In this document: one piece after another, positions 593-18,503 of the stretch
Layout of the letters: each line of letters starts with the position of its first letter
Position numbering within the stretch: the stretch's first letter is position 1
Origin: a virus
DNA: 29,282 nt
IMG/VR virus record: IMGVR_UViG_3300047289_000017
Location: 1 to 29,282 of that record
Reading direction: 5' to 3' (one strand)
Program-made: the position numbers and the translations under genes
The notes under the pieces: generated by a model
Database searches by the model: none
Told to the model about the DNA's origin: nothing
Seen by the model: the letters and a program-made list of their open reading frames with translations, nothing else

Positions 593-750
593 TGTAGGGT
601 GGTGAAAGCGGCCAGCACGGTATACACACCCACTCGTCTCGTGGGCGCAGATAAAGAAATAGACAAAAGGTATGGGTTGACCACAAGCTCGAGCATTTGT
701 GCCTTTTGTTGAATCTCTGTATGAAGGTTCGAATCCTTCCCCTACAGCCA
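593..750 (+). tRNA. Oversized tRNA-like RNA with encoded CCA
   Basis: The ends are those of a tRNA. TGTAGGG (593-599) pairs perfectly with CCCTACA (740-746), then G747 and an encoded CCA (748-750). The T-arm is canonical (GAAGG 723-727, loop TTCGAAT, CCTTC 735-739). A plausible D-arm is GTG (602-604) with CAC (616-618) around a loop containing GCGG. Between D-arm and T-arm are about 104 bases where about 30 are expected. They can form CCCAC/GTGGG (629-633/641-645), ACAAAAGG/CCTTTTGT (663-670/702-709) and an inner CACAA/TTGTG hairpin. No arm has a canonical anticodon loop with U33. It could be a tRNA with an intron-like insertion, a fused or decayed tRNA, or a distinct tRNA-like RNA. Confidence 0.5.
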
Positions 751-3224: not shown

Positions 3225-4667
3225 ATGATTAAAGGTTACATTCCAAAGGATCAAAGAAAAAAGATCCTGTTTATGTGCGACGACATTAGAATGACAAGTG
3301 GTATTTCCACCATGGCAAGAGAGATTGTAATCGGTACATCTCACAGATTTAATTGGATTAATTTAGGTGGTGCTATTGAACACCCCGATGCAGGCAAAAG
3401 ATTGGACATTAGCGAAGATACTAACAACATTATGGGTATTAAAGATGCTTCTGTGTTTATCTATCCTATCAATGGATACGGTACACAAGAGCTGATAAGA
3501 CAATTAATTGAAATTGAAAAGCCTGACGCTATCATGTTCTTTACGGATCCTAGGTACTGGATTTGGTTGTTTCAAATGGAAAGCGAGATAAGAAAGAAAA
3601 TCCCAATGATTTACTTAAATATATGGGACGATTTACCTGCTCCACTGTACAACAAAGCCTATTACGAATCTTGTGATACACTAATGGCAATTTCTAAGCA
3701 GACTTTAAACATCAATAGAATGGTGTTAGGCGATAGAATAGAAAATAAAATACTTAAGTACGTACCACACGGTATCAATCATAAGATCTATTTTCCTATC
3801 AACGAATTCATGAAGGACGATACTGCTAACGTAGAAAAGAAAAGAGAACAGCTATTCGGTAAAGACCAACCAGAATTCGTAGTATTCTATAACGCTAGAA
3901 ACATTAGACGTAAGAGTACCTCAGATTTGATTGCAGCCTACTCAGAGTTCTGTGAATCTATCGGAAAAGAAAAAGCAAAGAAGTGCGCGTTGTTATTACA
4001 TACGCAAGTAAGAGATGACAACGGTACAGATCTATCAGTAGTAAGAGATTTACTATGCGATCCAGAATACGTTAAAGTTATATTCCACGACGCAAGAGTT
4101 CCAAGCAACGAAGTGAATTGGCTGTATAATATTTCAGACGTTACTGCATTGATTTCTTCTAACGAAGGTTGGGGATTATCTTTAACAGAGTCTTTGATGG
4201 CCGGTAAAATGATTATAGCTAACGTCACAGGCGGTATGCAAGATCAAATGAGATTTGAAGACGAAGATGGAAATTGGATTGACTTTGACGAGAACTTCTG
4301 TTCTAATCACTTTGGAACTTACAAGAAACATGGAGAATGGGCAGTGCCTGTATTCCCTACAAATTCTAGTATTGTAGGATCTATTCCAACTCCGTATATC
4401 TTTGACGATCGTTGTGATTTCAGAGATGTAGCGAAAGCAATCAAACAAGTGTACGACTTAGATCCACAAGAAAGAGCCAAGAGAGGAAATGCTGGTAGAG
4501 AATGGGTTTTATCAGCAGAAGCTAAGATGAGTGCAGAAACTATGTGTGAAAACGTAGTAGAATGTATTGATCAAACTTTTGAAACATTCGAACCTAGAAA
4601 ATCTTTTGAATTAACAAAGATAGATAAATTACCAAGAAAAAAAATAGTACATAAATTAACATATTAA
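3225..4667 (+). CDS. GT-B glycosyltransferase (GT4-like)
   Basis: A 480-residue retaining-type glycosyltransferase with two Rossmann-like halves. The N-terminal part (ILFMCDDIRMTSGISTMAREI) has the glycine/serine loop of an acceptor domain. The C-terminal part has the donor-binding E-x7-E motif EGWGLSLTE (E314, E322), preceded by VFYNARNIRRKSTSDLI. The donor is a nucleotide sugar; which sugar cannot be told. It opens the sugar island, and the next transferase follows after one base. There is no signal peptide or membrane anchor, so it acts in the cytoplasm. Confidence 0.85.
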   Translation: MIKGYIPKDQRKKILFMCDDIRMTSGISTMAREIVIGTSHRFNWINLGGAIEHPDAGKRLDISEDTNNIMGIKDASVFIYPINGYGTQELIRQLIEIEKPDAIMFFTDPRYWIWLFQMESEIRKKIPMIYLNIWDDLPAPLYNKAYYESCDTLMAISKQTLNINRMVLGDRIENKILKYVPHGINHKIYFPINEFMKDDTANVEKKREQLFGKDQPEFVVFYNARNIRRKSTSDLIAAYSEFCESIGKEKAKKCALLLHTQVRDDNGTDLSVVRDLLCDPEYVKVIFHDARVPSNEVNWLYNISDVTALISSNEGWGLSLTESLMAGKMIIANVTGGMQDQMRFEDEDGNWIDFDENFCSNHFGTYKKHGEWAVPVFPTNSSIVGSIPTPYIFDDRCDFRDVAKAIKQVYDLDPQERAKRGNAGREWVLSAEAKMSAETMCENVVECIDQTFETFEPRKSFELTKIDKLPRKKIVHKLTY

Positions 4668-4668
4668 T

Positions 4669-5961
4669 ATGAAGCAATACTGTGTTATAAGTTGTCCAAT
4701 CGACACTTATTCAGGTTACGGAGCAAGAGCAAGAGATTTTGTAAAAGCGTTATACGAATTAAAGAAAGACGAATACGACATAGAGATACTCGCTCAAAGA
4801 TGGGGTTCAACTCCATGGGGATATATAAAAGATCACAGCGAAGAATGGGGATTCTTAGAACCATTGCTAGCAAAACAACAGATGAGCAAACAGCCCGACG
4901 TATGGATTCAGATCACGGTTCCTAACGAATTCCAACAGATCGGTAAATTCAATATTGGAGTTACAGCAGGTATAGAAACAACTCTATGTCATGCTAGTTG
5001 GATAGACGGCGTAAATAGAATGAACGTTACATTAGTATCTTCTCAACACGCTAAAACGGTATTTCAACAGTCTACATTTGAAGAGAAGAATCAACAAGGC
5101 CAAGTGACTAGACAAATCAAATTGGAAAAACCAGTTGAAGTGTTATTCGAAGGAGTGGATCTAAACAAATACTTCTACATCGCAGACGAAGATTTAGATG
5201 GCACAGATTTGGTACAATCATTAGACGAAATCAAAGAAGAGTTCTGCTACCTATTTGTGGGGCATTGGTTACAAGGAGCTTTAGGAGAAGACAGAAAGAA
5301 CGTAGGTTTAATGTTAAAGACTTTCTTAGAGACCTTTAAAAATAAAAAGAATAGACCTGCATTGATATTAAAAGTATCAGGCGCTGGATCTTCTGTAATG
5401 GATAGAGAGGATATGCTCAATAGAATTGAGAGCGTTAGATCTACTGTTTCTGGAGATTTACCTAACGTATATCTATTGCACGGAGAATTGGACGACAAGG
5501 ATATTAACAACCTATACAATCACGGCAAAGTAAAAGCAATGATCAGCTTAACTAAAGGTGAAGGATTTGGTAGACCGTTATTAGAGTTCACGCTATCTAA
5601 GAAACCATTAATCACAACAGCATGGTCAGGTCATACTGATTTCTTATTCATCGAAAATGTGTGTATGATAGGAGGAGAAATTAAACCGGTTCATCCATCT
5701 GCACAAGTTAAAGATATGTTATTAGCCGAATCAGGTTGGTTTAGTCCAGACGTTAAGCAAGCAGAATTCTATTTAAGAGATGTATACGAGAAGTATTCTA
5801 AGTACGAAGAGAAAGCAAAGAAGCAAGCACATCAATCAAAAACTAAGTTTAACTTTGATGAAATGAAAAATGTGTTGGCTACTTACTTAGATAAAATTCC
5901 TAAACAAGTGGGATTGACATTACCTAAACTTAAAAAAATAGAAGTTAAAAATGACAAGTAA
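4669..5961 (+). CDS. GT-B glycosyltransferase (GT4/GT1-like)
   Basis: A 430-residue glycosyltransferase. The N-terminus CPIDTYSGYGARARDFVKAL is the acceptor-side loop. The donor-side E-x7-E motif is EGFGRPLLE (E298, E306), followed by SKKPLITTAWSGHTDFL as in GT4 enzymes. It differs enough from the preceding gene not to be a recent duplicate. The pair probably adds successive sugars. The end overlaps the following small gene by 11 bases. Confidence 0.85.
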   Translation: MKQYCVISCPIDTYSGYGARARDFVKALYELKKDEYDIEILAQRWGSTPWGYIKDHSEEWGFLEPLLAKQQMSKQPDVWIQITVPNEFQQIGKFNIGVTAGIETTLCHASWIDGVNRMNVTLVSSQHAKTVFQQSTFEEKNQQGQVTRQIKLEKPVEVLFEGVDLNKYFYIADEDLDGTDLVQSLDEIKEEFCYLFVGHWLQGALGEDRKNVGLMLKTFLETFKNKKNRPALILKVSGAGSSVMDREDMLNRIESVRSTVSGDLPNVYLLHGELDDKDINNLYNHGKVKAMISLTKGEGFGRPLLEFTLSKKPLITTAWSGHTDFLFIENVCMIGGEIKPVHPSAQVKDMLLAESGWFSPDVKQAEFYLRDVYEKYSKYEEKAKKQAHQSKTKFNFDEMKNVLATYLDKIPKQVGLTLPKLKKIEVKNDK

Positions 5962-6166
5962 AGAATTTTGTATGTGGCTCAAAGGATTTACCGAAGGGGT
6001 CCACGAGTTTAATATAACACCAAAACAGTGGGATTTATTAAAAGAAAAATTAGCAGAAGTAAATGATGAACCTCGTAATACCATAGCATACTACTCTAAA
6101 GATGGTAGACCCACTTGGTATACAGCTACTAATACAACTAACGAAAAAACATTATTAAATGACTGA
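5951..6166 (+). CDS. Small phage protein, FCMWLKGF type
   Basis: A 71-residue protein of a kind common in phages: an N-terminal helix EFCMWLKGFTEGVHEFNITPKQWDLLKEKLAEV, then a short polar tail. I know the pattern (aromatic WLxGF, then T-P-x-Q and an amphipathic helix) from many phage genomes, but no function has been established that I know of. It overlaps neighbours on both sides (11 and 8 bases). Its place inside a sugar island is odd for a protein with no sugar link. Confidence 0.7.
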   Translation: MTSKEFCMWLKGFTEGVHEFNITPKQWDLLKEKLAEVNDEPRNTIAYYSKDGRPTWYTATNTTNEKTLLND

Positions 6167-6605
6167 TCAATTAACAATATGTCCAAAGTGTAAAGCAGAA
6201 GATGCTTGTTATGTTACTCCTATCAATGAGTTTCATAACGTATATGCTTGCTTTAGCTGCGGATTTACTACGAGCGATTTAATGAGAGAAGGAGAATTTG
6301 ATTTCGAACAATACGAAGCAGAGTTTCCAGAATTATATAAAGATATCAAACACGTAGATGAAGATAAACGAGTATGGTATCCTCAAGTAATTAATATAGA
6401 AAATCAAGGCACCGTATTTGCAAATGGAAGTAGCGCTGAAGATTGGGAATGGAGTGCAATCAAATCTATTAAATTGACAGAAGAAGAGAAAGACACACCT
6501 AAATTCAAAGGTAAAACCCACAAATCAGATTCAGCTAGTCTAAAAGGATTCGGAAGCGACTTCTTTGATGCTTGCGATTACATTGGGTTATTTGAAGTAA
6601 AATAA
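6159..6605 (+). CDS. Zinc-ribbon phage protein
   Basis: A 148-residue protein. CPKC (residues 8-11) and CFSC (about 31-34) form a zinc ribbon. The remainder is acidic with aromatic residues (FDFEQYEAEFPELYKDIKHV, WYPQVINI) and ends with a KGFGSDFFDACDYIGLF segment. It overlaps the upstream gene by eight bases. The function is unknown. A zinc ribbon followed by an acidic body suggests a protein- or nucleic-acid-binding accessory, not an enzyme. Confidence 0.7.
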   Translation: MTDQLTICPKCKAEDACYVTPINEFHNVYACFSCGFTTSDLMREGEFDFEQYEAEFPELYKDIKHVDEDKRVWYPQVINIENQGTVFANGSSAEDWEWSAIKSIKLTEEEKDTPKFKGKTHKSDSASLKGFGSDFFDACDYIGLFEVK

Positions 6606-6610
6606 AGAAT

Positions 6611-7222
6611 ATGAAAATAAGTTACGCAATCACTGCTCACAACGAAGCAGAAGAATTAAACAGGCTATTAAAGCAACTTACAGAAGGCAAGCAAGGCGAA
6701 GATGAGATCATCATTCAGTTAGACGATACAGCAACAGACAAAGTAAAGTTTGTTGTAGATATCTATCCAGTAAAGTCAATTACATTTCCGCTTAACAAAG
6801 ACTTTGCAGCTTTTAAAAATAACCTAAAGAAAAATTGTACAGGCGATTACATCTTTTTTATTGATGCAGACGAATACCTATCTGAGCACTTATTAAAATT
6901 AATTAAAGAGGTATTAGAAGCGAATAGTAATGTAGAATGCTATGGAGTTCCTAGAGTAAACACTGTTAAAGGTCTTACTGAAGAACACATCAAAACATGG
7001 CATTGGAGAGTAGACGAAAAAGGCAGAGTTAATTGGCCTGATTATCAAACAAGAATATGTAAGAACATTGAGTCAATTCAATGGGTTGGTAAAGTTCACG
7101 AAAGATTGGAAGGTTGGAAAACATCTTCTATATTTCCTGCTGAATTTGAAGACTGGGCTTTGTACCATCCTAAAGACATTCAAAGACAAGAACAGCAAAA
7201 CTCCTTATACAACACTATATGA
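6611..7222 (+). CDS. GT2-family glycosyltransferase, short
   Basis: A 203-residue GT-A type transferase. The start KISYAITAHNEAEELNRLLKQL is the GT2 nucleotide-binding opening. IIIQLDDTATDK is the first acidic site, and FFIDADEYL contains the metal-binding D85-A-D87. W-x-WRVDEKGR...YQTRICKN and KVHERLEGW follow as in tandem-type GT2 enzymes. It is shorter than most GT2 proteins and has no membrane segment. The stop overlaps gmd by four bases, which ties it to the GDP-sugar genes. Confidence 0.8.
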   Translation: MKISYAITAHNEAEELNRLLKQLTEGKQGEDEIIIQLDDTATDKVKFVVDIYPVKSITFPLNKDFAAFKNNLKKNCTGDYIFFIDADEYLSEHLLKLIKEVLEANSNVECYGVPRVNTVKGLTEEHIKTWHWRVDEKGRVNWPDYQTRICKNIESIQWVGKVHERLEGWKTSSIFPAEFEDWALYHPKDIQRQEQQNSLYNTI

Positions 7223-8202
7223 GTAAAGTAGCACTAATTACTGGTATTAACGGTCAAGACGGAAGTTATTTAGCCGAGTTATTATTAGAGAAAGGATACG
7301 AAGTGCACGGCACACTAAAGAGAAATTCTGTAGCTGAGAATCAAACAGCGAGAATTCAAGTGTACGATCAGATAAAAGATAATTTGACTTACGCAGATAT
7401 GACCGACTTAGCATCTCTTAATAGAGTGTTGGCTAAAGTACAACCAGATGAGATATACAACTTAGCGGCTCAATCTCATGTAAGAATATCATTCGATCAA
7501 CCAGTGTATACCGCAAATACTGTGGGTATAGGAACTCTTAATCTATTGGAAGCTGCGCTATCTACGTGTAAGAATGCAAAGATATATCAAGCATCTTCTT
7601 CTGAAATGTTTGGTAACTGCATAGACAAAGACCGATTTCAAAGAGAGACCACACCAATGAATCCAGTATCTCCTTACGGTTGCGCTAAAGTATTTGGATA
7701 TAACATAACAAGGAATTATAGAAACTCTTATGGTATGTTCGTATCTAATGGAATTCTATTTAACCACGAATCACCAAGAAGAGGTACTAACTTCGTAACA
7801 AATAAAGTAGTTAAAGAAGCTGTTAAGATATTCTACGGTCAATCAACGGAATTGAGATTGGGTAACTTAGAAGCAACAAGAGATTGGGGTCATGCTAAAG
7901 ATTATGTAGAAGCAATGTGGAGAATATTACAATTAGAAGATGCAGACGATTTTGTTTGTGCTACAGGTACTTCACATTCGGTTAGACAATTATGTGAATA
8001 TGTTTTTAGCAAATTAGAATTAAACTACGAAGACTACGTAAAGCTAGACATGAAGTTTCTAAGACCAGAAGAGTTAACAGATTTAAAAGGAGATCCTAGC
8101 AAATTAATGAAAGCTACTGGTTGGAAACCTACTTATACGTTTGAAACGATGTTGGACGAGATGATTTCATATTGGTTAAAAGAATTAAATAGAGTATTCT
8201 AA
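7219..8202 (+). CDS. gmd: GDP-mannose 4,6-dehydratase
   Basis: A 327-residue short-chain dehydratase converting GDP-D-mannose to GDP-4-keto-6-deoxy-D-mannose. Residues 5-15 (ALITGINGQDG) form the NADP-binding G-x2-G-x2-G. The family hallmarks RNS, YNLAAQSHV, SSSEMFGN and SPYGCAK (Y153, K157) are all present, as is NHESPRRGTNFVT, typical of Gmd. It is somewhat shorter than the bacterial enzyme (about 340-370). It overlaps the next gene (TAATG), which encodes the following enzyme in the pathway. The product can feed both the fucose branch and possibly the 3-dehydratase at 9769. Confidence 0.95.
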   Translation: MSKVALITGINGQDGSYLAELLLEKGYEVHGTLKRNSVAENQTARIQVYDQIKDNLTYADMTDLASLNRVLAKVQPDEIYNLAAQSHVRISFDQPVYTANTVGIGTLNLLEAALSTCKNAKIYQASSSEMFGNCIDKDRFQRETTPMNPVSPYGCAKVFGYNITRNYRNSYGMFVSNGILFNHESPRRGTNFVTNKVVKEAVKIFYGQSTELRLGNLEATRDWGHAKDYVEAMWRILQLEDADDFVCATGTSHSVRQLCEYVFSKLELNYEDYVKLDMKFLRPEELTDLKGDPSKLMKATGWKPTYTFETMLDEMISYWLKELNRVF

Positions 8203-9101
8203 TGACAAAAGTAATTACCGGAGGAACAGGATTAATAGGATCTGCTTTTAATGAAGGAATTAAATTAACTTCTAAGAGAGACCTAAGAGATTACGACAAA
8301 GCTAAATTCGCAATATCAATGTACAAGCCAGATGTGGTAGTGCACTGCGCAGCAAAAGTCGGTGGAGTTGGGGCTAACATGCAATTTCCTGCTGATTTTT
8401 TTATGGACAACATTAGAATGAATACGAATGTAATTCAAGCTTGTCAAGAGTTAAAGATACCAAAACTAGTTTCATTTTTATCTACGTGTGTATTTCCTGA
8501 TAAAGTGGAATATCCATTGGATGAAACTAAAATAGAACTAGGTCCACCACACTCATCTAACTTCGCTTACGCTTACGCTAAGAGAATGGCTGACGTACAG
8601 ATTAGAGCATTCAACCAACAATACGGTACACAATACTTTTCAGTGATTCCTTGTAACGTATATGGACCAAACGATAACTATAGCTTAGAAGTAGGTCATG
8701 TAATTCCAATGTTAATTCACAAGTGTTATCTGGCCAAAAAGAATAGAAAGACTTTTGAAGTATGGGGTGATGGTACTCCACTTAGAGAATTTGTTTATTC
8801 AAAAGACGTAGCGAACATAGTAGATCTACTTATCCAGAAATATACAGGGACTGAACCAGTGATCATATCTAATCCAACTGAGTATTCCATTAAGCACGTA
8901 GTTGATCTGATTGTGGAGTACATGGGCTTCAAAGGGAAAGTAAAGTGGTTGACAGACAAACCAAACGGACAACACAGAAAACCATCGTCTAATGCTAAAC
9001 TTTTGAGTATCATTGGAGACTATGAGTTTACCACTTTGGAGAAAGGTTTAAAAGAATCAATAGAATGGTTTATATTAAATTACCCAAACGTTAGAAAATA
9101 A
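8202..9101 (+). CDS. fcl: GDP-L-fucose synthase
   Basis: A 299-residue epimerase/reductase producing GDP-L-fucose from GDP-4-keto-6-deoxymannose. It has GGTGLIGSAF for NADP, FLSTCVFPDK (S94, C96), YAYAKRM (Y123, K127) and EVGHVIP (H166), which are the catalytic serine, cysteine, tyrosine, lysine and histidine. Several blocks (STC-FPDK-YP-DET, GPPH-SNF-Y-YAKRM-DVQ, the closing Q-K-SN-KL) recall the animal enzyme more than E. coli WcaG. It directly follows gmd with a one-base overlap. A GDP-colitose synthase role is possible, since those enzymes are related, but the adjacent GT11 transferase favours fucose. Confidence 0.93.
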   Translation: MTKVITGGTGLIGSAFNEGIKLTSKRDLRDYDKAKFAISMYKPDVVVHCAAKVGGVGANMQFPADFFMDNIRMNTNVIQACQELKIPKLVSFLSTCVFPDKVEYPLDETKIELGPPHSSNFAYAYAKRMADVQIRAFNQQYGTQYFSVIPCNVYGPNDNYSLEVGHVIPMLIHKCYLAKKNRKTFEVWGDGTPLREFVYSKDVANIVDLLIQKYTGTEPVIISNPTEYSIKHVVDLIVEYMGFKGKVKWLTDKPNGQHRKPSSNAKLLSIIGDYEFTTLEKGLKESIEWFILNYPNVRK

Positions 9102-9772
9102 TGACAAGAGAAATAGTAATAGCAGCGTACGACAAATACTTGGATTGGTTAGATAAATTCAATTCAGATATTAAAGTTACTGTCTATAGAAAAGGAGAAG
9201 AAGCAAAACAAAGAGAAGACGAGATTAAATTAGAACCTAATAAGGGTAGATGCGTACATACATTCTTTAATCACATATACACTAACTACGACAATCTATC
9301 AGATATTACATTCTTTGGTCAAGATTGGCCTTTCGACCATTGGGAAGATATCGTAGAAGTTGTAAACAATGGCACTGAAAACCTTAGGCATCAATTAAAA
9401 ATAGGAGGCTATTACGGATTTCATTTCAATACCATAACAGTTCCATCTCCATTAGGCGGCACAATGTGGGCATTGAGTCCATCTAAACAACACGGAGAAG
9501 GAAGAGTGTTAGTTTGTCAAAGCAATGGATATCCTCAAGACTCTAATCCAAATATAAACGTAGACAAATACTGGGATTTATTATTTACAGATGAAAAGCC
9601 TACAGAATATGAATTCATGCCAGGCGGTCATTTCGGAATTACCAAAGAACATGCTCAATTAAGATCTAAAGAGTTCTATAAAAATGTGTGCGATTTTCTA
9701 TTAGAAGATGAATCAGCACCGTGGATGATAGAAAGATTAGAGTGTTACATATTCAACCCAAACATAAAATGA
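9101..9772 (+). CDS. DUF3431-like protein
   Basis: A 223-residue protein resembling DUF3431 proteins: an opening IVIAAYDKYLDWLDKF, a YRKGEE block, PNKGRCVHTFFNHIYTNYDNLSDITFFGQDWPFDH, and an ending MPGGHFGITKEH-LR. The family is found near glycosyltransferases in fungi, bacteria and viruses, and its fold is thought to be transferase-like. No reaction is established. It overlaps both neighbours (1 and 4 bases), within the GDP-sugar part of the island, so a role in the same glycan is likely. It could be a glycosyltransferase of an undefined family. Confidence 0.75.
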   Translation: MTREIVIAAYDKYLDWLDKFNSDIKVTVYRKGEEAKQREDEIKLEPNKGRCVHTFFNHIYTNYDNLSDITFFGQDWPFDHWEDIVEVVNNGTENLRHQLKIGGYYGFHFNTITVPSPLGGTMWALSPSKQHGEGRVLVCQSNGYPQDSNPNINVDKYWDLLFTDEKPTEYEFMPGGHFGITKEHAQLRSKEFYKNVCDFLLEDESAPWMIERLECYIFNPNIK

Positions 9773-11055
9773 TTAAACTAGAAAATATACAAGAGTTAGT
9801 CGGTAACCACGTAGCTCCTTACATTTACAATGCTAAGAACTTTACACCAGGTAAAACACCGATCTATTACTCAGGTCCTTATTGGGATAATAAAGAGACC
9901 GAAGCTGCAATAGAAAGTTTCTTAAACGGTAAGTGGATTACTACCGGTGAAAAGGTTTACAAGTTTGAAAACCAATTCAGTAAGAGATTCAACGTTAAGC
10001 ACTCGCACATGGTAAATTCAGGTAGCTCTGCTAACTTGGTATTAATTGCCGCGTTAAAGAAGAGATTTAATTGGGCTGACGATGATGAAATTATAGTATC
10101 TCCAGTTGGATTCGCTACTACAGTATCAGTGCTATACCAACACAGATTAAAACCAGTATTCGTTGATATAGAATGGGACACACTTAATTTTGACTTAGAT
10201 CAAGTAGAAGCAAAGATAACAGACAAAACAAAAGGCATCTTCATATCTCCAGTATTGGGTAACCCTCCAGATATAGATAGATTGGTTGAAATGGCTGAGA
10301 AGTACAATCTAAAATTGATTGGAGATAACTGCGATAGTTTGGGTTCTAAATGGAACGGCAAGTTCTTAAGTGAATATTACGTGGCATTCTCTAATTCATT
10401 TTATCCAGCGCATCACATCTCAACAGGCGAAGGCGGAATGATTTGTACTAACGACGATGAGTTAAAGAAACTATTTGTTAGTATTAGTTGGTGGGGTAGA
10501 GATTGCTATTGCATAGGATCTGCTAACTTATTGCCTTGCGGTACATGCGGTAATAGATTTGATAAGTGGTTAGATAATTACGACGGAGTTATCGATCACA
10601 AGTATGTATTCTCTCAAATGGGTTATAACTTAAAACCATTGGATTTACAAGGCGCAATTGGATTGGAACAGTTAATTAAGCTAGATGAAATGGAAGCAAA
10701 GAGACGATCAGCTAAAGCGAGATTGACAAAGATCTTTACCGATAACATTCCAAATTTAAGATCACCTTCTAAATTAGAGCAAGCAGATCCTTGTTGGTTT
10801 GGCACTCCATTTATATGCGATGAAGATGGATTGAAACATAGATTAGTTGCATTCTTAGAAGAGAATAAAATACAAACAAGAAACTATTTTGCTGGAAATA
10901 TTTTAATGCATCCAGGCTATTCATTCTTGGATGACTACAAAAATTATCCAGAAGCAAACAAAGTATTAGACAAAGTATTCTTTATAGGCGCAGCACCACA
11001 CTACACAGAACAAGTGTTTGCATACATTGAACAAGTAGTAAAAAAGTTTAAATAA
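9769..11055 (+). CDS. RfbH-like PLP/2Fe-2S sugar 3-dehydratase
   Basis: A 428-residue protein of the DegT/DnrJ/EryC1 fold. The internal-aldimine lysine region reads NSFYPAHHISTGEGG (H215, H216), so histidine replaces lysine as in RfbH/E1 and ColD. RDCYCIGS and PCGTCGNRF supply C246, C248, C257 and C260, matching the cysteine block of RfbH (CDP-4-keto-6-deoxyglucose 3-dehydrase, 2Fe-2S) and absent from ColD. DHKYVFSQMGYNLKPLDLQGAIGLEQL and FAGNILMHPG are also RfbH-like. It should remove the C3 hydroxyl of a 4-keto-6-deoxyhexose. The natural substrate may be the Gmd product or a host CDP-sugar; the reductase partner E3 is not in this window. Start chosen at 9769 (ATGA overlap). Confidence 0.88.
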   Translation: MIKLENIQELVGNHVAPYIYNAKNFTPGKTPIYYSGPYWDNKETEAAIESFLNGKWITTGEKVYKFENQFSKRFNVKHSHMVNSGSSANLVLIAALKKRFNWADDDEIIVSPVGFATTVSVLYQHRLKPVFVDIEWDTLNFDLDQVEAKITDKTKGIFISPVLGNPPDIDRLVEMAEKYNLKLIGDNCDSLGSKWNGKFLSEYYVAFSNSFYPAHHISTGEGGMICTNDDELKKLFVSISWWGRDCYCIGSANLLPCGTCGNRFDKWLDNYDGVIDHKYVFSQMGYNLKPLDLQGAIGLEQLIKLDEMEAKRRSAKARLTKIFTDNIPNLRSPSKLEQADPCWFGTPFICDEDGLKHRLVAFLEENKIQTRNYFAGNILMHPGYSFLDDYKNYPEANKVLDKVFFIGAAPHYTEQVFAYIEQVVKKFK

Positions 11056-11870
11056 TGATATCTATATTCGGAGGAACTGGATTTATAGGATCTAAGTTCT
11101 ACAACAAACATAAAGAAAATTCAGTCTTAATACCAAGAGACGAAGTACAACCTAAATCTAATAGAGTATTGTACTTAATTAGCACAGTCGATAATTACAA
11201 CGTATTAGAAAATCCTTTCGTAGACATAGAAACAAATCTAATACATTTAATGAAAGTATTGGACAACTGTAAAGGAAAAGATATAGAGTTTACATTCGTC
11301 AGTTCTTGGTTCGTGTACGGTGATACACACTTACCGGCTAGAGAATCATCTCCTTGTAAACCAAAGGGATTCTATTCTATAACTAAGTTAGCAGCGGAAC
11401 AATTAATAGAATCTTATTGCAACACTTTTAATATTAAATACAAGATCGTAAGACTTGGAAATGTAATAGGTAAAGGAGACGGCAAAGTTTCAAAGAAAAA
11501 GAATGCGTTACAATTTTTAATAGACGAGTTGAAGGCTGATAGAGATATTAATTTATACAACAACGGAGAATTCTATAGAGACTTCGTACATGTAGACGAT
11601 GTAGTTGCGGGTATTAAGTTCGTTATGGATCGTGGAGAAAGCGGAGAGATATACAATTTAGGCTCAGCAAGAAAGCCAACACTATTCAAAGATATTATTG
11701 CTTACGCTAAACAGGAAATAGGATCTCACAGCAATATAGGAACAATGGAAGCATCAGACTTTCACAAGATAGTACAAGTAGAATCCATGTATTTGGATTC
11801 AAGTAAATTAGGAGCATTAGGATTTTTCCCATCTGTAGGAGTTTACGAAGCAGTTAAACAAATGATATGA
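11055..11870 (+). CDS. NAD(P)-dependent sugar reductase/epimerase (extended SDR)
   Basis: A 271-residue extended short-chain dehydrogenase. It has IFGGTGFIGSKF for the cofactor, FVSSWFVYGD, and the catalytic pair in FYSITKLA (Y107, K111). RDFVHVDDVVAGI and IYNLGSARKPT follow. It is short for the family (usually about 310) and lacks a clear acidic residue after the second strand, so it may prefer NADPH. It starts on the last base of the RfbH-like gene. In O-antigen clusters a 4-ketoreductase such as abequose synthase follows RfbH, so a 4-ketoreductase making a 3,6-dideoxyhexose is a sensible guess. Confidence 0.82.
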   Translation: MISIFGGTGFIGSKFYNKHKENSVLIPRDEVQPKSNRVLYLISTVDNYNVLENPFVDIETNLIHLMKVLDNCKGKDIEFTFVSSWFVYGDTHLPARESSPCKPKGFYSITKLAAEQLIESYCNTFNIKYKIVRLGNVIGKGDGKVSKKKNALQFLIDELKADRDINLYNNGEFYRDFVHVDDVVAGIKFVMDRGESGEIYNLGSARKPTLFKDIIAYAKQEIGSHSNIGTMEASDFHKIVQVESMYLDSSKLGALGFFPSVGVYEAVKQMI

Positions 11871-12703
11871 TAAGTTATAAAAAGATAGGACATTTTGGTC
11901 GTCTCGGAAATCAGATGTTTCAATTTGCTTCCACTGTAGGCGTAGCTAATAAAACTGGACATGATGTAGCATTTCCAAAAGAGAATGTAGATGTACCAAG
12001 CGTAGAGCACTTTAAAGACGGAGTTAGAAGAGAAGTCTATTTTGATTTACCTAAGTATTTCGACAATGTTAAGTTGACGTTAAAACCAGAATCTGAAATA
12101 CAAACGTTACATATAGCACAAGAACCTTACTTCCATTTCTGTCAAGATCTATTTAGAGTTCCAGATCAGACCAATTTAATGGGTTATTTTCAAACAGAAA
12201 AGTACTTTGAACACTGTAGCGAAACAATACGAGAATTCTTTGAATTCAATTCAGAAACAAAAAAGAAAGCCGAGTCCTCATTCCCAGTATTCCCTATGCA
12301 ATTAGAATTTGTATCAGTGCATTTAAGAAAGGGAGATTATGCCGGTCTTCAACAGTTTCATCCCGTAATGGATGCTGACTACTACTTCAATGCTATGACC
12401 CATTTTATGAATGGTAACTATTGTTTCTTAATATTCTCTGACGATATAGAATACGCAAAAGAATTGTTTGGAGATCAAGAGAACATTATTTACATGGAAG
12501 GAAACGATCCTGATGTAGATATGTGTATGATGAGTATGTGTCATCACAACGTAATAGCTAATAGCAGTTTTAGTTGGTGGGGCGCATGGTTAAACCAAAA
12601 TCCCAATAAAAAAGTTATAGCTCCAAAAAAATGGTTTGGTCCTGCCTACAACGGAGTTCACGATACAAAAGATTTATACCCTCAATCATGGATAAAAGCG
12701 TAA
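11867..12703 (+). CDS. GT11-family fucosyltransferase (alpha-1,2 type)
   Basis: A 278-residue transferase. GHFGRLGNQMFQFAS is the family opening and HLRKGDY (H152-D157) is the HxRxGD(Y) motif binding GDP-fucose. MMSMCHHNVIANSSFSWWGAWLN and VIAPKKWFGP are the conserved C-terminal blocks of FutC/WbsJ/FUT1-like enzymes. It would transfer L-fucose from GDP-L-fucose to a galactose-type acceptor; linkage and acceptor are not shown by the sequence. It lies three genes after the GDP-fucose pathway and overlaps the gene before by four bases. Confidence 0.92.
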   Translation: MISYKKIGHFGRLGNQMFQFASTVGVANKTGHDVAFPKENVDVPSVEHFKDGVRREVYFDLPKYFDNVKLTLKPESEIQTLHIAQEPYFHFCQDLFRVPDQTNLMGYFQTEKYFEHCSETIREFFEFNSETKKKAESSFPVFPMQLEFVSVHLRKGDYAGLQQFHPVMDADYYFNAMTHFMNGNYCFLIFSDDIEYAKELFGDQENIIYMEGNDPDVDMCMMSMCHHNVIANSSFSWWGAWLNQNPNKKVIAPKKWFGPAYNGVHDTKDLYPQSWIKA

Positions 12704-13404
12704 TACCTTTTTTTAGTGTCGCTATTCCTACATGGGGAATTCAAGGTAAAGGAGTCGAATACTTAGAACACTCATTTAATATATTAGCGCAACAGAGCTT
12801 TACAGATTTTGAAGTAGTTATATCAGATCATAGCGAAGATGACGACATAGAGAACTTATGTAATTCTTGGAGTTCAATGATGAATATTAAGTGCTTTAGA
12901 AACTCTAATGGTAGAGGCAAAATAGCGCCGAATATGAATAACGCTATTGAACATTCAAGCGGTCTATTTATCAAGATGTTATTTCAAGACGATTTCTTAT
13001 ACGATACAGATTCTCTTCAGATCATATACGATAGTATAGCGGAGAATCAAGACAAAGATTGGTTTATTACGGCGTGTGTACATACAGATGATTGCGTAAC
13101 TATGTATGATAGAATGACTCCTTACTATCACGATCGCATATATGCAGGAGTTAATACTATAAGTTGTCCGTCTGTACTGACAATTAGAAATGAATATACA
13201 AAACCAAAATTTGATGAGACATTGAATTGGTTGGTGGACGTGGAGTACTATAAAAGATTACACATGATATATGGAGATCCTGTTGTTATAGATATGGTAT
13301 GCACAGTTAATAGAAATTCAGAAGTAAGAGCTACCAATATAATAACAGAGAGACAAAAACAAGAAGAAATTCAAAGAGTAATAAGACGATATGAAACTAA
13401 ATAA
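12688..13404 (+). CDS. GT2-family glycosyltransferase
   Basis: A 238-residue GT-A transferase from the ATG at 12688; an upstream extension would overlap the fucosyltransferase in another frame. FFSVAIPTWGIQGKGVEYLEHSFNIL and FEVVISDHSEDDDIE are the GT2 opening and first acidic site. NMNNAIEHSSGLFIKMLFQDDFLYD includes the QDDF metal site, and LNWLVDVEYYKRL is the later helix. Donor and acceptor are unknown. It overlaps the upstream gene by 16 bases and the downstream one by 14. Confidence 0.82.
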   Translation: MDKSVIPFFSVAIPTWGIQGKGVEYLEHSFNILAQQSFTDFEVVISDHSEDDDIENLCNSWSSMMNIKCFRNSNGRGKIAPNMNNAIEHSSGLFIKMLFQDDFLYDTDSLQIIYDSIAENQDKDWFITACVHTDDCVTMYDRMTPYYHDRIYAGVNTISCPSVLTIRNEYTKPKFDETLNWLVDVEYYKRLHMIYGDPVVIDMVCTVNRNSEVRATNIITERQKQEEIQRVIRRYETK

Positions 13405-14047
13405 TGTAACCATTGCAGCCGTAGCAGGTACTAAAGCTATCGAAACTCTTAAGGCTATTAAGTATAGTATGCGAGAGCTAGAGTTTGACCGTGCAATCCT
13501 AATTACTCCAGAAGATATACAAGACGATCAAGTAGAGATCATTAAGTGCGAACCACTAAACTACGAACAATACAATCACTTTATAGTTTACAGACTACAC
13601 GAGTACATTACAACTACACACTGCTTATTAATTCAGAACGATGGATACGTAGTGAATCCAGACAAATGGCAAGACGAGTGGATGCAATACGATTACATAG
13701 GTGCTTTATGGCCACTGCCTCAAGACGACTTCTCTTTCAGAGATCAAGACGGAAACATACAAAGAATGGGTAATGGAGGATTCACACTAAGAAGTAAAAA
13801 GCTATTATGTGTGGCAAATGATTTAGATTTGGAATGGAAACAGTATTATGGATTCTATCATGAAGACGGATTCTTTTGTTGTCACCATAGAAAAACTTAT
13901 GAATCAGCTGGATGTAAGTTTGCACCAATAGAGGTAGCTGCACAATTTAGTCATGAAACCATGGTAGCAGAAAATTATGGAAACATACCATTTGGATTTC
14001 ATGGAAGAAACAATTATTATTATCACATAACACAAAAAAGTTTATAA
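13391..14047 (+). CDS. DUF5672-like putative glycosyltransferase
   Basis: A 218-residue protein matching DUF5672: NVTIAAVAGTKAIETLKAIKYS at the start, then HFIVYRLHEYITTTHCLLIQNDGYVVNPDKW, DYIGALWP, RMGNGGFTLRSKKLL and FYHEDGFFC. The IQNDG and GNGGF blocks resemble GT-A folds, and the family occurs in glycan clusters, but I know of no measured activity. It is embedded between GT2 and methyltransferase genes, with overlaps on both sides. Confidence 0.8.
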   Translation: MKLNNVTIAAVAGTKAIETLKAIKYSMRELEFDRAILITPEDIQDDQVEIIKCEPLNYEQYNHFIVYRLHEYITTTHCLLIQNDGYVVNPDKWQDEWMQYDYIGALWPLPQDDFSFRDQDGNIQRMGNGGFTLRSKKLLCVANDLDLEWKQYYGFYHEDGFFCCHHRKTYESAGCKFAPIEVAAQFSHETMVAENYGNIPFGFHGRNNYYYHITQKSL

Positions 14048-14622
14048 TGAACGAAGAACAAAGATTAGAAGAACTATTTAACATCCCAAGAATGGGTCAC
14101 GCTGCATTAGAACCTCACAATAGCGTAAGAGGCCTTTATGAATTAGTTAAATTATACATAACTTCAGATACTGAGATGGTAGAGATCGGATCTTTTCAAG
14201 GCGTATCTACAATGTTATTTGCCTTATTTGCAAAAAAAGTAAATAGCGTAGATTGTTACGATTATGTTGTACCTCCAACAGGCAGAATCCCTTCTCACGA
14301 TCAATTGTTCGTGGATGCTGAGAAAGTATTTATAGAAAGGACTTCTCACATAAAAAATATAAATAAGATTAGAAAATCTAGTGTTGAAGCCTCTAATGAT
14401 TTCGTAGATGGATCTTTAGATCTAGTATACGTAGATGCTGAACACGATCCAATTAGTGTTAGATCTGATATTAATGCGTGGAAGAATAAGATTAAAATTG
14501 GTGGCATTTTATGCGGACATGATTTCTATCTACCACACATCTACACTATTTTACACGAAGAAGGATTAATCAACGAATTGTATACATATCCAGACAGTTC
14601 ATGGTCTGTAATAATTAAATAA
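14047..14622 (+). CDS. Class I SAM-dependent methyltransferase
   Basis: A 191-residue protein. EMVEIGSFQGVSTMLFALFA is motif I (E-x-G-x-x-x-G) for S-adenosylmethionine. VNSVDCYDYV is the acidic end of strand 2, and DLVYVDAEHDPISVRSDINAWKNKIKIGGILCGHDF is the Methyltransf_24-type motif with metal-binding-like D and H residues. O-methylation of a sugar is the likely role, for example capping the glycan. It starts on the last base of the preceding gene and ends one base before the epimerase. Confidence 0.8.
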   Translation: MNEEQRLEELFNIPRMGHAALEPHNSVRGLYELVKLYITSDTEMVEIGSFQGVSTMLFALFAKKVNSVDCYDYVVPPTGRIPSHDQLFVDAEKVFIERTSHIKNINKIRKSSVEASNDFVDGSLDLVYVDAEHDPISVRSDINAWKNKIKIGGILCGHDFYLPHIYTILHEEGLINELYTYPDSSWSVIIK

Positions 14623-14623
14623 T

Positions 14624-15619
14624 ATGAAGGTATTAATAACAGGAGTCGCAGGTCTATTAGGTTCAAGACTTGCGGATTGGATTATAGAACATAAACCAGA
14701 AGTAGAGGTAGTAGGTATCGATGATTTATCAGGAGGCTACTTAGAGAATGTAAACCCAAAGGTTAATTTCTGGCAGATGAATTTAGTAGAACATCCTATT
14801 GAGAATTGTTTTGCTACTAACGAATTTGATTATGTATTCCACTTCGCAGCTTACGCAGCAGAAGGTTTAAGTCCATTCATTAGAAGATACAACTACGATA
14901 ATAACCTAGTCGCAACAGCAAGAGTTGTTAACAATTGTATTAAGTACGATGTGAAGAGACTAATCTTTACTTCTACTTTAGCTGTATACGGTCATGGTTA
15001 TGGTGGCATATTCGACGAAACACAAGTGCCTAAGCCAATAGATCCATACGGAGTTGCTAAGTACGCTTGTGAGATGGACATTCAAATTGCGGGTGAACAA
15101 CATGGTTTGGATTGGTGTATCATTAGACCACACAATGTATACGGTCGTAAGCAAAATATATGGGATAAGTATCGTAATGTATTGGGTATTTGGATGTATC
15201 AACAGATGAACGGAGAACCAATGACAATCTTTGGAGACGGTACACAAACAAGAGCGTTTAGTTGTATCGACGATATAGTTGAACCGCTATGGAATTCAGC
15301 AATAGAACCACGAGCATCTAAAGAGATTATCAATTTAGGAGGAGTAGAAGAGTGGAGTATCAACGACGCAAATAAAGTATTAAGAGATATAATCAAATAC
15401 GGAGCAGAGTATCAATATAAAGAAGGAAGACACGAAGTAAAGCATTCAATTCCTACATATCAGAAATCAGAAGACATTCTTGGTTTTAAACATAAGACTA
15501 CGTTAGAGGAAGGATTATATGATATGTGGTTATGGGCACAACGTCAACCAAATAGAGACAGATTCGTTTGGCCTTCATACGAATTAGACAAAGGCATTTA
15601 TTCATTCTGGAAAAAGTAA
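14624..15619 (+). CDS. NAD-dependent nucleotide-sugar epimerase/dehydratase
   Basis: A 331-residue extended SDR. KVLITGVAGLLGSRLADWI is the NAD loop, and VVGIDDLSGG carries the acidic residue typical of NAD preference. FHFAAYAAEGL, FTSTLAVYG and DPYGVAKYACE (Y142, K146) are the active-site blocks, and RPHNVYGRKQNIWDKYRNV is GalE/UDP-glucuronate-epimerase-like. The length is normal for the family. It probably interconverts C4 epimers of a UDP-sugar; the exact substrate cannot be read. Confidence 0.85.
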   Translation: MKVLITGVAGLLGSRLADWIIEHKPEVEVVGIDDLSGGYLENVNPKVNFWQMNLVEHPIENCFATNEFDYVFHFAAYAAEGLSPFIRRYNYDNNLVATARVVNNCIKYDVKRLIFTSTLAVYGHGYGGIFDETQVPKPIDPYGVAKYACEMDIQIAGEQHGLDWCIIRPHNVYGRKQNIWDKYRNVLGIWMYQQMNGEPMTIFGDGTQTRAFSCIDDIVEPLWNSAIEPRASKEIINLGGVEEWSINDANKVLRDIIKYGAEYQYKEGRHEVKHSIPTYQKSEDILGFKHKTTLEEGLYDMWLWAQRQPNRDRFVWPSYELDKGIYSFWKK

Positions 15620-15620
15620 T

Positions 15621-16514
15621 ATGATATACACAAAATTCATGTACGGTCAAGGTTTCGGTAACCAGCTTGCAGTTTATGTAACAACTAGAGCCATAGCTAA
15701 AAGAAACGGTTACGAGTTCGGTTATGCAGGTTTAGAAAACTTTGGAGACAGAAGATACAACGACAAAGGCGTGTACTTTATGGATATAGATTTGGGTACA
15801 CAAGTGCCTGAACACGAGTTCAACATGTACACAGAAAAAGAAACAAGAATAAAGCTAGATCATTCAGAACACGATCGTACCCATGGTTGTGATATAAGAT
15901 TAATAGACCAAGATCTGTTGAATGTAGCTGACGACACTAGAATTATGGGTATTATGCAAGGCGAAGACTATTTTTGGAATTATAGAGAAGAGATTAAAGA
16001 CTGGTTAAAAGTAAAACCAGAATTTGATTGCGTAGATTATAGTCAAGATGACATATGTGTATTGAATATTAGAGACTACGAAGCAGATCCTACTCTATTC
16101 TTATCAAGAGATTATTGGGTTAAAGCAATCTATCACATGCTTAGTTTAAACCCTAACATGCAATTCTTAGTTATCACCGAGAATCCTGATATGGCAAAGA
16201 GATTGCTACCAGAATTAACCGACAATGTATATCACTTTGATTTAGCTAAAGACTATTCTATTGTTAAGAATGCTAAGTGGTTAATCATATCCAATTCAAG
16301 CTTTGCTTATTTTCCAGCATTTTGTAGTGATGCTCATCTAATTATAGCACCGAAGTATTGGTGTAGACACAACGTATCTGATGGATATTGGAGTTGTGGT
16401 TATAACATAAGTCGTAAGTTTACATACATGGATAGACAAGGCCAATTACAATCTTATACTGATGTAGCAAGAGAATTTGAATTATATAAAAAAGAAAGCA
16501 AGATATATGGCTAG
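15621..16514 (+). CDS. Divergent GT11-like glycosyltransferase
   Basis: A 297-residue protein. It opens with KFMYGQGFGNQLAVYVTTRAIAKRNGY, the GT11/fucosyltransferase N-terminal loop. Where HxRxGDY is expected it has CVLNIRDYEADP, keeping Arg and Asp but losing His and Gly. AKWLIISNSSFAYFPAFCSDAHLIIAPKYW parallels the NSSFSWW...VIAPKKW block of the enzyme at 11867. It may use another GDP-sugar or be a fucosyltransferase of different specificity. It overlaps the next gene by eight bases. Confidence 0.7.
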   Translation: MIYTKFMYGQGFGNQLAVYVTTRAIAKRNGYEFGYAGLENFGDRRYNDKGVYFMDIDLGTQVPEHEFNMYTEKETRIKLDHSEHDRTHGCDIRLIDQDLLNVADDTRIMGIMQGEDYFWNYREEIKDWLKVKPEFDCVDYSQDDICVLNIRDYEADPTLFLSRDYWVKAIYHMLSLNPNMQFLVITENPDMAKRLLPELTDNVYHFDLAKDYSIVKNAKWLIISNSSFAYFPAFCSDAHLIIAPKYWCRHNVSDGYWSCGYNISRKFTYMDRQGQLQSYTDVAREFELYKKESKIYG

Positions 16515-17370
16515 AGTATTTGATGTGTTTACATTCTTTAATGAATTGGATTTATTAGAACTAAGATTAGAGATGTTAGATCCATACGTAGATCAATTCG
16601 TATTGATAGAATGCGTAGAAACTTTCTCAGGTAAACAGAAGCCATTGCACTTCATGAATAACAAAGAGAGGTTCTCAAAGTATTTACATAAAATATACCA
16701 TCATGTAACTTATGATCCACCAAAATCATTCGACGATTTACAACAAAGAATAACGAATCCTAATATAGATAAAGATGTTAAGCAAGTTTGTATACAAGCT
16801 TTAACTAGTTCTAATGTGCCTAAAGGAGAATTACACTGGCTAAAAGAATTCTATCAAAAAGAAACTATAAGATTTGCTATAGAAAATGCTGGAGCAGAGA
16901 ACGACGATCTAATATTCGTTACAGATTTAGACGAGATATGGAATCCAGAGTTAGACTATACGCAAATAGAAAACGATAAGATATACAAGTTAAGACAACT
17001 GGCATATTCAGGTTACATGAACATAAGATCTTCAGAAGATTGGGCCGGTACATTATTAACCAGATATACAAATATAGATGGAGCTTGTTTAAACCATCTT
17101 AGAACTCCATCAAAAACTAAGTACGAGTACGTTAACAATGCGGGTTGGCACTTCACATTTATGGGAGGAGAGAAACAAGTTAAGATGAAGTTAGAAGCTT
17201 ACGGTCACCAAGAGTACAACAACGATTCTGTTAAGGATAGAGTCAAAGATTTACTAGCAAACGGTCAAGACGTTTTAGGCAGAACCAATTTTAGATTTTG
17301 GTTGGACGAATCGCAACTGCCAAAGTATTTACTAGATAACAAACAAAAGTATAAACAATTTTTTAGATGA
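16507..17370 (+). CDS. GT17-family glycosyltransferase
   Basis: A 287-residue protein resembling GT17 (beta-1,4-N-acetylglucosaminyltransferase III family). It has ARVFDVFTFFNELDLLELRLEML at the start, VDQFVLIECVETFSGKQKPLHF, then ETIRFAI and LIFVTDLDEIWNP with the DxD-type acidic site. AGWHFTFMGGEKQVKMKLEAYGHQEYN closes the domain. The ATG at 16507, with an eight-base overlap on the upstream stop, fits better than the upstream in-frame ATG inside the previous gene. The family is known in eukaryotes, bacteria and large viruses. A GlcNAc donor is likely but not proven. Confidence 0.85.
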   Translation: MARVFDVFTFFNELDLLELRLEMLDPYVDQFVLIECVETFSGKQKPLHFMNNKERFSKYLHKIYHHVTYDPPKSFDDLQQRITNPNIDKDVKQVCIQALTSSNVPKGELHWLKEFYQKETIRFAIENAGAENDDLIFVTDLDEIWNPELDYTQIENDKIYKLRQLAYSGYMNIRSSEDWAGTLLTRYTNIDGACLNHLRTPSKTKYEYVNNAGWHFTFMGGEKQVKMKLEAYGHQEYNNDSVKDRVKDLLANGQDVLGRTNFRFWLDESQLPKYLLDNKQKYKQFFR

Positions 17371-18503
17371 TAACATTCTGCATACCAAGCAAGAACAACT
17401 TACGATACTTAAAACCTTGTATCAAATCTATTCAAGATAATTCTTACTATCCAAATCAAATCATTGTGTATGTAGATCAAGACACAGACGGAACTGTAGA
17501 ATGGTTGAGAGAGAATGGTATTAAGTTCATTCAAAACCACGAAGCGACTCCAAGAGGAATTGGCTTCGCTTACGATAACATGTTTCAATGGGCCGACAGA
17601 GAATATGTAATAGCATTTCACGCCGACATGATTCTTGGTCCTCATGCGGATAAACACATGATGGATATTAAAACAAAGGACAACATCGTTTGCGCCACTC
17701 GTATAGAACCACCGTTACATCCAGCTGGAATAGAGAAGATCGTGCAAGATTTTGGTATGTGGCCAGAAGATTTAAAGATTGAAGAGTTTAACAAGTTCGT
17801 CGAAGCTAACAAAAGCGATAAGATAACTAAAAGCATCTTCGCTCCGTGGTTAATTAGAAAGGACCAACACTTAGGACATGATCCTATATTCTTGTCAGTA
17901 TTCGAAGACGCTGATCTATTTAGAAGATTCAAATTAAAAGGTTACGATTTGATTCAATCTTGGTCTGCAATGGTATATCACTTAACTTGTAGAGGCGGAC
18001 AATTTGCACACGCAGAAAAGATGGAAGACTTTCAAAAGAAGGACGAGAGCTGGCAGAAGAATAACCAAATATCCGCTAACGAATACATTAGAAAGTGGGG
18101 AGGATTTTTAAAACAGTCTGATACATTAGAACCTATCCCTAATATCAAGTACAATATAGGTCTTAGAATATTAAATTGTTTCAATGATGGTATGATGGGA
18201 GTAGAACCATACTTTGATCAGATACAATGCGAAGCAGATCCTACAAATTACATTAACAGAATTAAAGACGCTACTTCTTTCGATATAGCTTCTAAGTTTG
18301 TAAGTGAGTTAACAACAGATATGATACTAGAAGCGGACTACAAAGATATTCTTAATAATCAAGAACTTTTTAATTATATCTTGCATAATCTACCAGATTT
18401 AATTGCGAATGAAGTTAAAGAAATTGGAGAATACGAACTACAGATATTCAAACTAATTGTAAATAAGGTAGAACAACATCAACCTAAATTAAATTTATGC
18501 TAA
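17367..18503 (+). CDS. GT2-family glycosyltransferase, tandem copy 1
   Basis: A 378-residue protein. The N-terminal half is a GT2 domain: TFCIPSKNNLRYLKPCIKSI, IIVYVDQDTDGTVEWL, FHADMILGP (acidic site), CATRIEPPLHPAG and FEDADLFRRFKLKGYDLIQSW...VYHLTCRG. The last 120 or so residues are an extra domain of unknown type. It shares most of these blocks with the next gene, so the two arose by duplication. The start overlaps the GT17 gene by four bases. Confidence 0.85.
   Translation: MITFCIPSKNNLRYLKPCIKSIQDNSYYPNQIIVYVDQDTDGTVEWLRENGIKFIQNHEATPRGIGFAYDNMFQWADREYVIAFHADMILGPHADKHMMDIKTKDNIVCATRIEPPLHPAGIEKIVQDFGMWPEDLKIEEFNKFVEANKSDKITKSIFAPWLIRKDQHLGHDPIFLSVFEDADLFRRFKLKGYDLIQSWSAMVYHLTCRGGQFAHAEKMEDFQKKDESWQKNNQISANEYIRKWGGFLKQSDTLEPIPNIKYNIGLRILNCFNDGMMGVEPYFDQIQCEADPTNYINRIKDATSFDIASKFVSELTTDMILEADYKDILNNQELFNYILHNLPDLIANEVKEIGEYELQIFKLIVNKVEQHQPKLNLC

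Follow-up and report, generated by a model that had tools for sequence, protein, structure and literature searches.

The window analyzed here, i.e. the whole 29,282-base IMG/VR virus fragment, carries at 593–750 of its plus strand a gene for a tRNA-Asp-like RNA that extends from U1 to an encoded CCA. Its conserved part (593–748) folds like a class II tRNA with acceptor, D-arm, anticodon arm, variable region and T-arm, of which the variable region is expanded to a giant arm. The assignment is based on homology (232 copies among the matches listed), covariation and the covariance model R1. Downstream of the gene (754–1061), a TTCTTTGACATA promoter-like motif and an ORF of 91 aa are conserved in phage relatives. 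Besides that, a second oversized tRNA-like RNA is found at 40–156, with a Leu-type acceptor (GCCGGTG/CACCGGC), a variable arm, a hairpin insertion in the D-loop, an altered T-loop and ACC-palindrome-GGT in place of the anticodon arm; a pattern scan found copies of it in nine viral contigs. A region of ~16 kb (3225–19672) of this phage fragment harbors a series of glycosyltransferase, GDP-mannose dehydratase, nucleotide-sugar epimerase and DegT aminotransferase genes.

A preliminary description of the locus had reported an oversized molecule with a 7-bp acceptor, a canonical T-arm, an encoded CCA and a plausible D-arm, all of which were borne out. The acceptor pairs 593–599 (UGUAGGG, with U1 and G2 near-invariant) with 740–746 (CCCUACA); 7/7 pairs change on both sides and 99.9% of the alignment cells are paired. 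G73 follows at 747 and CCA at 748–750, although the encoded CCA is no feature of the family, in which only its C74 is conserved (230/232 copies among the matches listed, as for G73). The D-stem of 3 bp (602–604 with 625–627; covariation in 2/3 pairs, 96.2% of cells paired) encloses an 11-nt insertion, GCGGCCAGCAC, at 608–618, of a type that is mostly phage-specific, followed by G18 and G19 (619–620), which are invariant in columns 45–46 of alignment A2. The T-arm GAAGG-UUCGAAU-CCUUC occupies 723–739 (100% of cells paired).

Contrary to the claim that the RNA has no ordinary anticodon loop, we found an anticodon arm at 629–645, in which the stem CCCAC/GUGGG (629–633/641–645; 5/5 pairs covary, 99.8% of cells paired) closes the 7-nt loop UCGUCUC (634–640). 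The loop presents an anticodon-like GUC (positions 34–36) at 636–638, and the window copy has C33, U37 and C38 at 635, 639 and 640; in the family, any of the four bases can occupy position 33, and position 37 is usually a pyrimidine. The extra sequence had been placed between the D- and T-arms; it is split into two parts, the D-loop insertion and a structured variable region of ~77 nt (646–722) with covarying helices. From its base, the variable arm consists of stem V1, a purine-rich internal loop, stem V2, a GGGUUGACCAC hairpin and an apical loop. The 5′ strand of V1 (GCAG, 647–650) pairs with 717–720, its second pair being G-C, C-G, A-U or U-A (99.8% of cells paired). The conserved purine-rich strand of the internal loop (651–663, opposite 709–716) reads GGAUAAA in chromosomal copies, forming the loop GGAUAAA/GCUAA; columns A88, A90, A190 and A191 are conserved, and an extra covarying helix joins columns 84–86 and 192–194. 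V2 (664–673 with 699–708) shows covariation in 8/10 pairs. The hairpin module GGGUUGACCAC (674–685) is near-invariant, with columns 140–150 of A2 essentially unchanged, but the pattern used for the search included its sequence. The palindromic apical loop GCUCGAGC lies at 687–694. The 3′ strands of V2 and V1 and the loop between them (699–720) were mapped to the window from the covariation alignment. Folding of the window RNA as a single sequence is unexceptional (z = -0.93); therefore, the case for the structure rests on the comparison of homologues.

Homologues in phages and Bacteroidota chromosomes

Relatives of the phage were reached via the neighbouring exonuclease gene, and recognisable copies of the element were found in seven of them. 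The preliminary description had pointed to an ordinary 75-nt tRNA in related phages, together with an assembly error, as the finding that would speak against it. None of the relatives examined has such a tRNA at this site, some of the same group lack the element there altogether, and an assembly artefact is rejected by homologues of the RNA in well over 200 records. A pattern built from the first copies matched at least 119 stretches in viral contigs and at least 120 stretches in GTDB genomes, nearly all of them Bacteroidota, with a few false positives (the excluded hits are L185, L195, L216, L233, L241, L245 and L269). As lower bounds, more than 100 distinct homologues are present in viral contigs and more than 100 in Bacteroidota chromosomes, the carriers including Chitinophagaceae, Cytophagaceae, Saprospiraceae, Flammeovirga, Runella and Pedobacter; ~31/297 sampled Bacteroidota genomes, about a tenth, carry the RNA. 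In total, 232 full-length copies were extracted from the matches listed. Since the search pattern fixed GGGTWGACCAC and GGTTCRAAYCC, the conservation of these two stretches is partly given by construction; this does not apply to the covarying helices and GUC.

In an alignment of 104 diverse homologues, 96.6% of the cells were paired compared to 78.9% after shuffling, with slid controls near 50%, and the covariation score was 0.527 versus 0.168, a value reached by 0/500 shuffles. All tRNA helices and the helices of the variable arm are supported by this alignment, and RNAalifold, unprompted, returned nearly the same fold with one additional covarying helix. The contacts U8-A14, A15-U48, G18-U55, G19-C56 and T54-A58 show no or almost no variation, and the L-shape is therefore kept. 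Across the family, the variable arm comprises ~45–110 nt. Short variants of 109–125 nt lack the hairpin module and keep V1 and the internal loop; they often stand in tandem, with one another or with a long copy, and Flammeovirga has five tandem copies. The models R1 and R2 set the family clearly apart: its members score at least 85 bits with the covariance model R1 and at least 102 bits with R2, compared to at most 62 bits for ordinary class II tRNAs with the latter. The single intermediate is a 77-nt RNA in genome G084 (L340, G084:C23:55337–55413), which has the loop CUAUCUC and no variable arm; this genome also encodes AsnA. Allo-tRNAs and tRNA-Sec share with the family a long variable arm, G73 and, in the case of some allo-tRNAs, a GUC anticodon. 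However, their acceptor branches are of the 8/4, 9/3 or 8/5 type, whereas the RNA has ordinary 7 + 5 bp, U1-A72, a much larger, branched variable arm and a family-wide GUC.

Chromosomal copies have transcription signals of their own: 52/101 have an intrinsic terminator within 70 nt, compared to 0/93 control windows, and 44/102 are preceded by a TAnnTTTG promoter box, with 4.9 expected. The phage copies mostly have neither, and several adjoin tRNA genes in arrays. These tRNA-derived RNAs certainly constitute a family of Bacteroidota chromosomes and their phages. The earlier view of a phage tRNA with a short structured insertion, or of a tRNA-like regulatory RNA, holds insofar as the molecule is tRNA-derived, has a structured expansion of its variable region and is probably no ordinary decoder; it does not hold with respect to phage specificity and to the anticodon arm, which is present with an essentially invariant GUC.

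The Rfam search proposed in the preliminary description gave no family match, neither at gathering nor at permissive thresholds of Rfam 15, for the window and its homologues. ARAGORN missed the RNA, INPHARED and PLSDB contained no match to the element, a search with the pattern GGTGAAAGCGGCCAGCAC yielded chance matches only, and no description of the family was found in the open-access literature. With respect to these sources, the family is previously uncatalogued: a structured RNA gene that about one in ten sampled Bacteroidota genomes carry, and of which phages have more than 100 distinct copies, has neither an Rfam entry nor an ARAGORN call. A tRNA outside translation is a known kind of molecule (PMC3399842); for the giant variable arm, the Asp identity, the AsnC-like partner and the putative dimer loops of the phage copies, no description was found in the open-access literature.

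Palindromic loops of the phage copies

Of the phage copies, 81% have a perfect palindrome of at least 8 nt in their apical loop, compared to 14% of the chromosomal copies and 7.5% of shuffled sequences. Self-complementary tetraloops follow this trend (56/63 phage tetraloops versus 2/18), and D-loop insertions of at least 10 nt were observed in 58/100 phage copies, but only in 4/103 chromosomal copies (among the matches listed). In the tree, phage copies fall into several groups, with at least 3 changes forced (bootstrap range 4–6), and the palindromes in phage copies arose convergently. Across these separate groups the loop sequence varies and palindromy is kept, which suggests homodimers formed by kissing loops; the phage copies probably dimerise through their palindromic loops. 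The convergence of these loops makes dimerisation of the RNA directly testable.

Aspartate determinants and a possible asparagine pathway

The strong determinants of aspartate identity are G73, G34, U35, C36 and C38 (PMC9976931). In the family, these positions are essentially invariant (GUC in 230/232 copies, G73 in 230/232 and C38 nearly always, among the matches listed). Not kept are G10, a further Asp determinant, and G1-C72, which helps AspRS to position the acceptor end; about 230/232 copies (among the matches listed) have U1-A72. A pattern search located an ordinary tRNA-Asp, with G1-C72, the loop CUGUCAC and A37, in 11/12 RNA-carrying genomes checked. It thus differs from the RNA at the 1-72 pair, at position 37 and in the variable arm, and the RNA is therefore an additional Asp-type RNA. 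We infer from the sequences that it would be processed like a tRNA and charged with aspartate by AspRS, and that it is probably not a normal decoder. It appears, judging from these features, that evolution has taken a tRNA off the ribosome and kept what the synthetase reads.

Among the matches listed, an AsnC-like regulator is the divergent upstream neighbour of the RNA in 72 chromosomal loci, and it holds this position in many sampled genomes too, while the other neighbours vary. The protein carries the Pfam domains HTH_AsnC-type and AsnC_trans_reg, and its best PDB match is AsnC of E. coli (2cg4, E = 6.6e-33; the next match has 3e-18). AsnC of E. coli activates asnA, and asparagine abolishes this activation (PMC4482635). 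An ortholog (at least 48% identity) is present in 43/43 genomes with the RNA (RNA+) and 1/37 genomes without it (RNA-), counted raw with kinship ignored; in ~12 RNA+ genomes the gene is located elsewhere in the genome. Counted in the same way, i.e. raw and irrespective of kinship, GatB and AsnRS are each encoded in 43/43 RNA+ genomes and AsnA in 4/43, with AsnA and the full RNA together in three (G174, G178 and G286). Based on the best hit per genome, the E. coli-type AsnB (554–560 aa) occurs only in RNA- genomes, namely those without GatB, and is absent from the best AsnB-like hits of RNA+ genomes, which have 591–670 aa and at most 35% identity to it. AsnB-like proteins above the family cut-off are found in ~35/43 RNA+ genomes, and eight have none; from their sequences, some of the proteins of 591–670 aa may be working asparagine synthetases. 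The GatB-lacking genome G029 had no AsnB match. The sole RNA- genome with the AsnC-like gene (G014) encodes AsnA and AsnB and has no GatB.

Altogether, our main reading, to which we assign a probability of roughly 45%, is that this class II-like tRNA family with its GUC anticodon and giant variable arm is charged with aspartate, does not decode and would serve as a platform for asparagine made by GatCAB, with dimerising copies in phages. This hypothesis is based on the U1-A72 pair, which is read by bacterial GatCAB (PMC4206432) and which ordinary tRNA-Asp does not have, on the pattern of GatB, AsnRS and AsnA/AsnB, and on the AsnC-like partner. AspRS would charge the RNA with aspartate, GatCAB would recognise U1-A72 and amidate Asp to Asn, and Asn would be released as free asparagine in cells that have AsnRS and no dedicated asparagine synthetase. 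Through the divergent AsnC-like regulator, the level of the RNA would follow asparagine, in the way that AsnC of E. coli acts on asnA, and phage copies in tRNA arrays could plausibly maintain the asparagine supply during infection. More tentative is the stronger proposal that many Bacteroidota use this non-decoding RNA, aspartylated and then amidated by GatCAB, as their asparagine synthase and control it through the AsnC-like regulator, and that the version of the RNA in phages dimerises. Should the asparagine reading be true, it would explain where many Bacteroidota that have AsnRS and no clear asparagine synthetase obtain free asparagine, and a tRNA would be seen to work as a cofactor of biosynthesis with a regulator of its own. 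GatCAB may, instead, be kept for Gln-tRNA. The established tRNA-dependent synthesis of Asn by AspRS and GatCAB on tRNA-Asn resembles the situation here in U1-A72, the presence of GatB and AsnRS and the frequent absence of AsnA, but here tRNA-Asn would be replaced as the carrier by a distinct GUC RNA that AspRS charges.

Alternative readings

The identity and AsnC evidence also fits a pseudo-tRNA that carries aspartate and serves in regulation or sensing but not in biosynthesis, reporting the Asp/Asn status by its charging state or by sequestration of AspRS or another protein via the variable arm. The covarying arm with its conserved loops would suit a protein-binding module, and tRNAOther of Bacillus cereus provides a precedent for a non-translational pseudo-tRNA (PMC3399842). 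Like tRNAOther and the tRNAs of peptidoglycan synthesis, the RNA has a tRNA-like body and is probably charged and probably off the ribosome; it differs from them in its giant variable arm, Asp identity, phylum-scale spread, AsnC-like partner and palindromic phage loops. We consider the sensor doubtful, as it leaves unexplained, when taken alone, why U1-A72 replaces G1-C72 and why the RNA and GatB are exchanged for AsnA/AsnB.

It is unlikely that the RNA is a functional elongator tRNA-Asp whose giant variable arm is simply tolerated. The RNA shares with elongator tRNA-Asp (GUC) the bases G34, U35, C36, C38 and G73, the pair G2-C71 and the canonical tertiary contacts of the L-shape (U8-A14, A15-U48, G18-U55, G19-C56), and U33 is kept in ~91% of the chromosomal copies (among the matches listed). 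Since U33 is missing in only 9% of these copies, decoding by chromosomal members may be possible. However, U33 is replaced by C, A or G in ~42% of the phage copies (among the matches listed), including the window with its C33; position 37 is a pyrimidine in nearly all of the 232 copies among the matches listed; and the T-stem is bulged in some phage copies. Furthermore, elongator tRNA-Asp has G1-C72 and a variable loop of 4–5 nt, compared to U1-A72 and a class II-like body (A15-U48) with a structured arm of 45–110 nt, and 11/12 of the genomes checked already possess an ordinary tRNA-Asp.

Phages might also keep the RNA as a decoy or replacement against host defences that cut tRNAs, a reading in line with its presence in phage tRNA arrays, the alterations of the anticodon loop at 33 and 37 and the mostly phage-specific palindromes. 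It is quite unlikely considering that the RNA is a chromosomal gene across Bacteroidota with its own promoter, terminator and AsnC-like partner. Charging with serine would agree with the class II body and G73, as SerRS reads the variable arm and G73 (PMC7609411), but bacterial Ser identity includes C72 (PMC9976931), in contrast to the A72 of the RNA. SerRS does not read the anticodon and would give no reason for an invariant GUC and a near-invariant C38, which makes this option very improbable. A tRNA with a removable intron in the variable region, to which the 77-nt armless relative in G084 could be taken to point, is the least likely option, given that covariation extends over the entire arm down to its closing stem V1, that short and long arms stand side by side in tandem copies and that the self-splicing introns known from bacterial tRNAs are far larger than these arms.

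Three further candidates were rejected. Identity with tmRNA conflicts with the lack of an Rfam tmRNA match, the presence of an anticodon arm and the separate tmRNA of relatives; the phage relatives L003, L004, L007, L008, L015 and L020 encode tmRNA, and several of the predicted tags are near-identical, e.g. DEMSTMTFDSLMEFVGANEYALAA. A link to LPG synthase was not apparent from its distribution (4/43 RNA+ versus 7/37 RNA- genomes). The bacterial Y RNA YrlA is a tRNA mimic with extra stem-loops; the RNA described here differs in having no Rfam match and in that a TROVE/Ro protein is found in only 4/43 RNA+ genomes, compared to 2/37 RNA- genomes, so that a Ro/TROVE partnership was discarded. GOLLD RNA is, like this family, a structured phage RNA near tRNAs, but is unrelated to it in sequence and size. 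It is present in one relative, L155, where a phage locus with GOLLD RNA (3832–4236) and tmRNA (6225–6633) also harbors the giant-armed RNA and several tRNAs.
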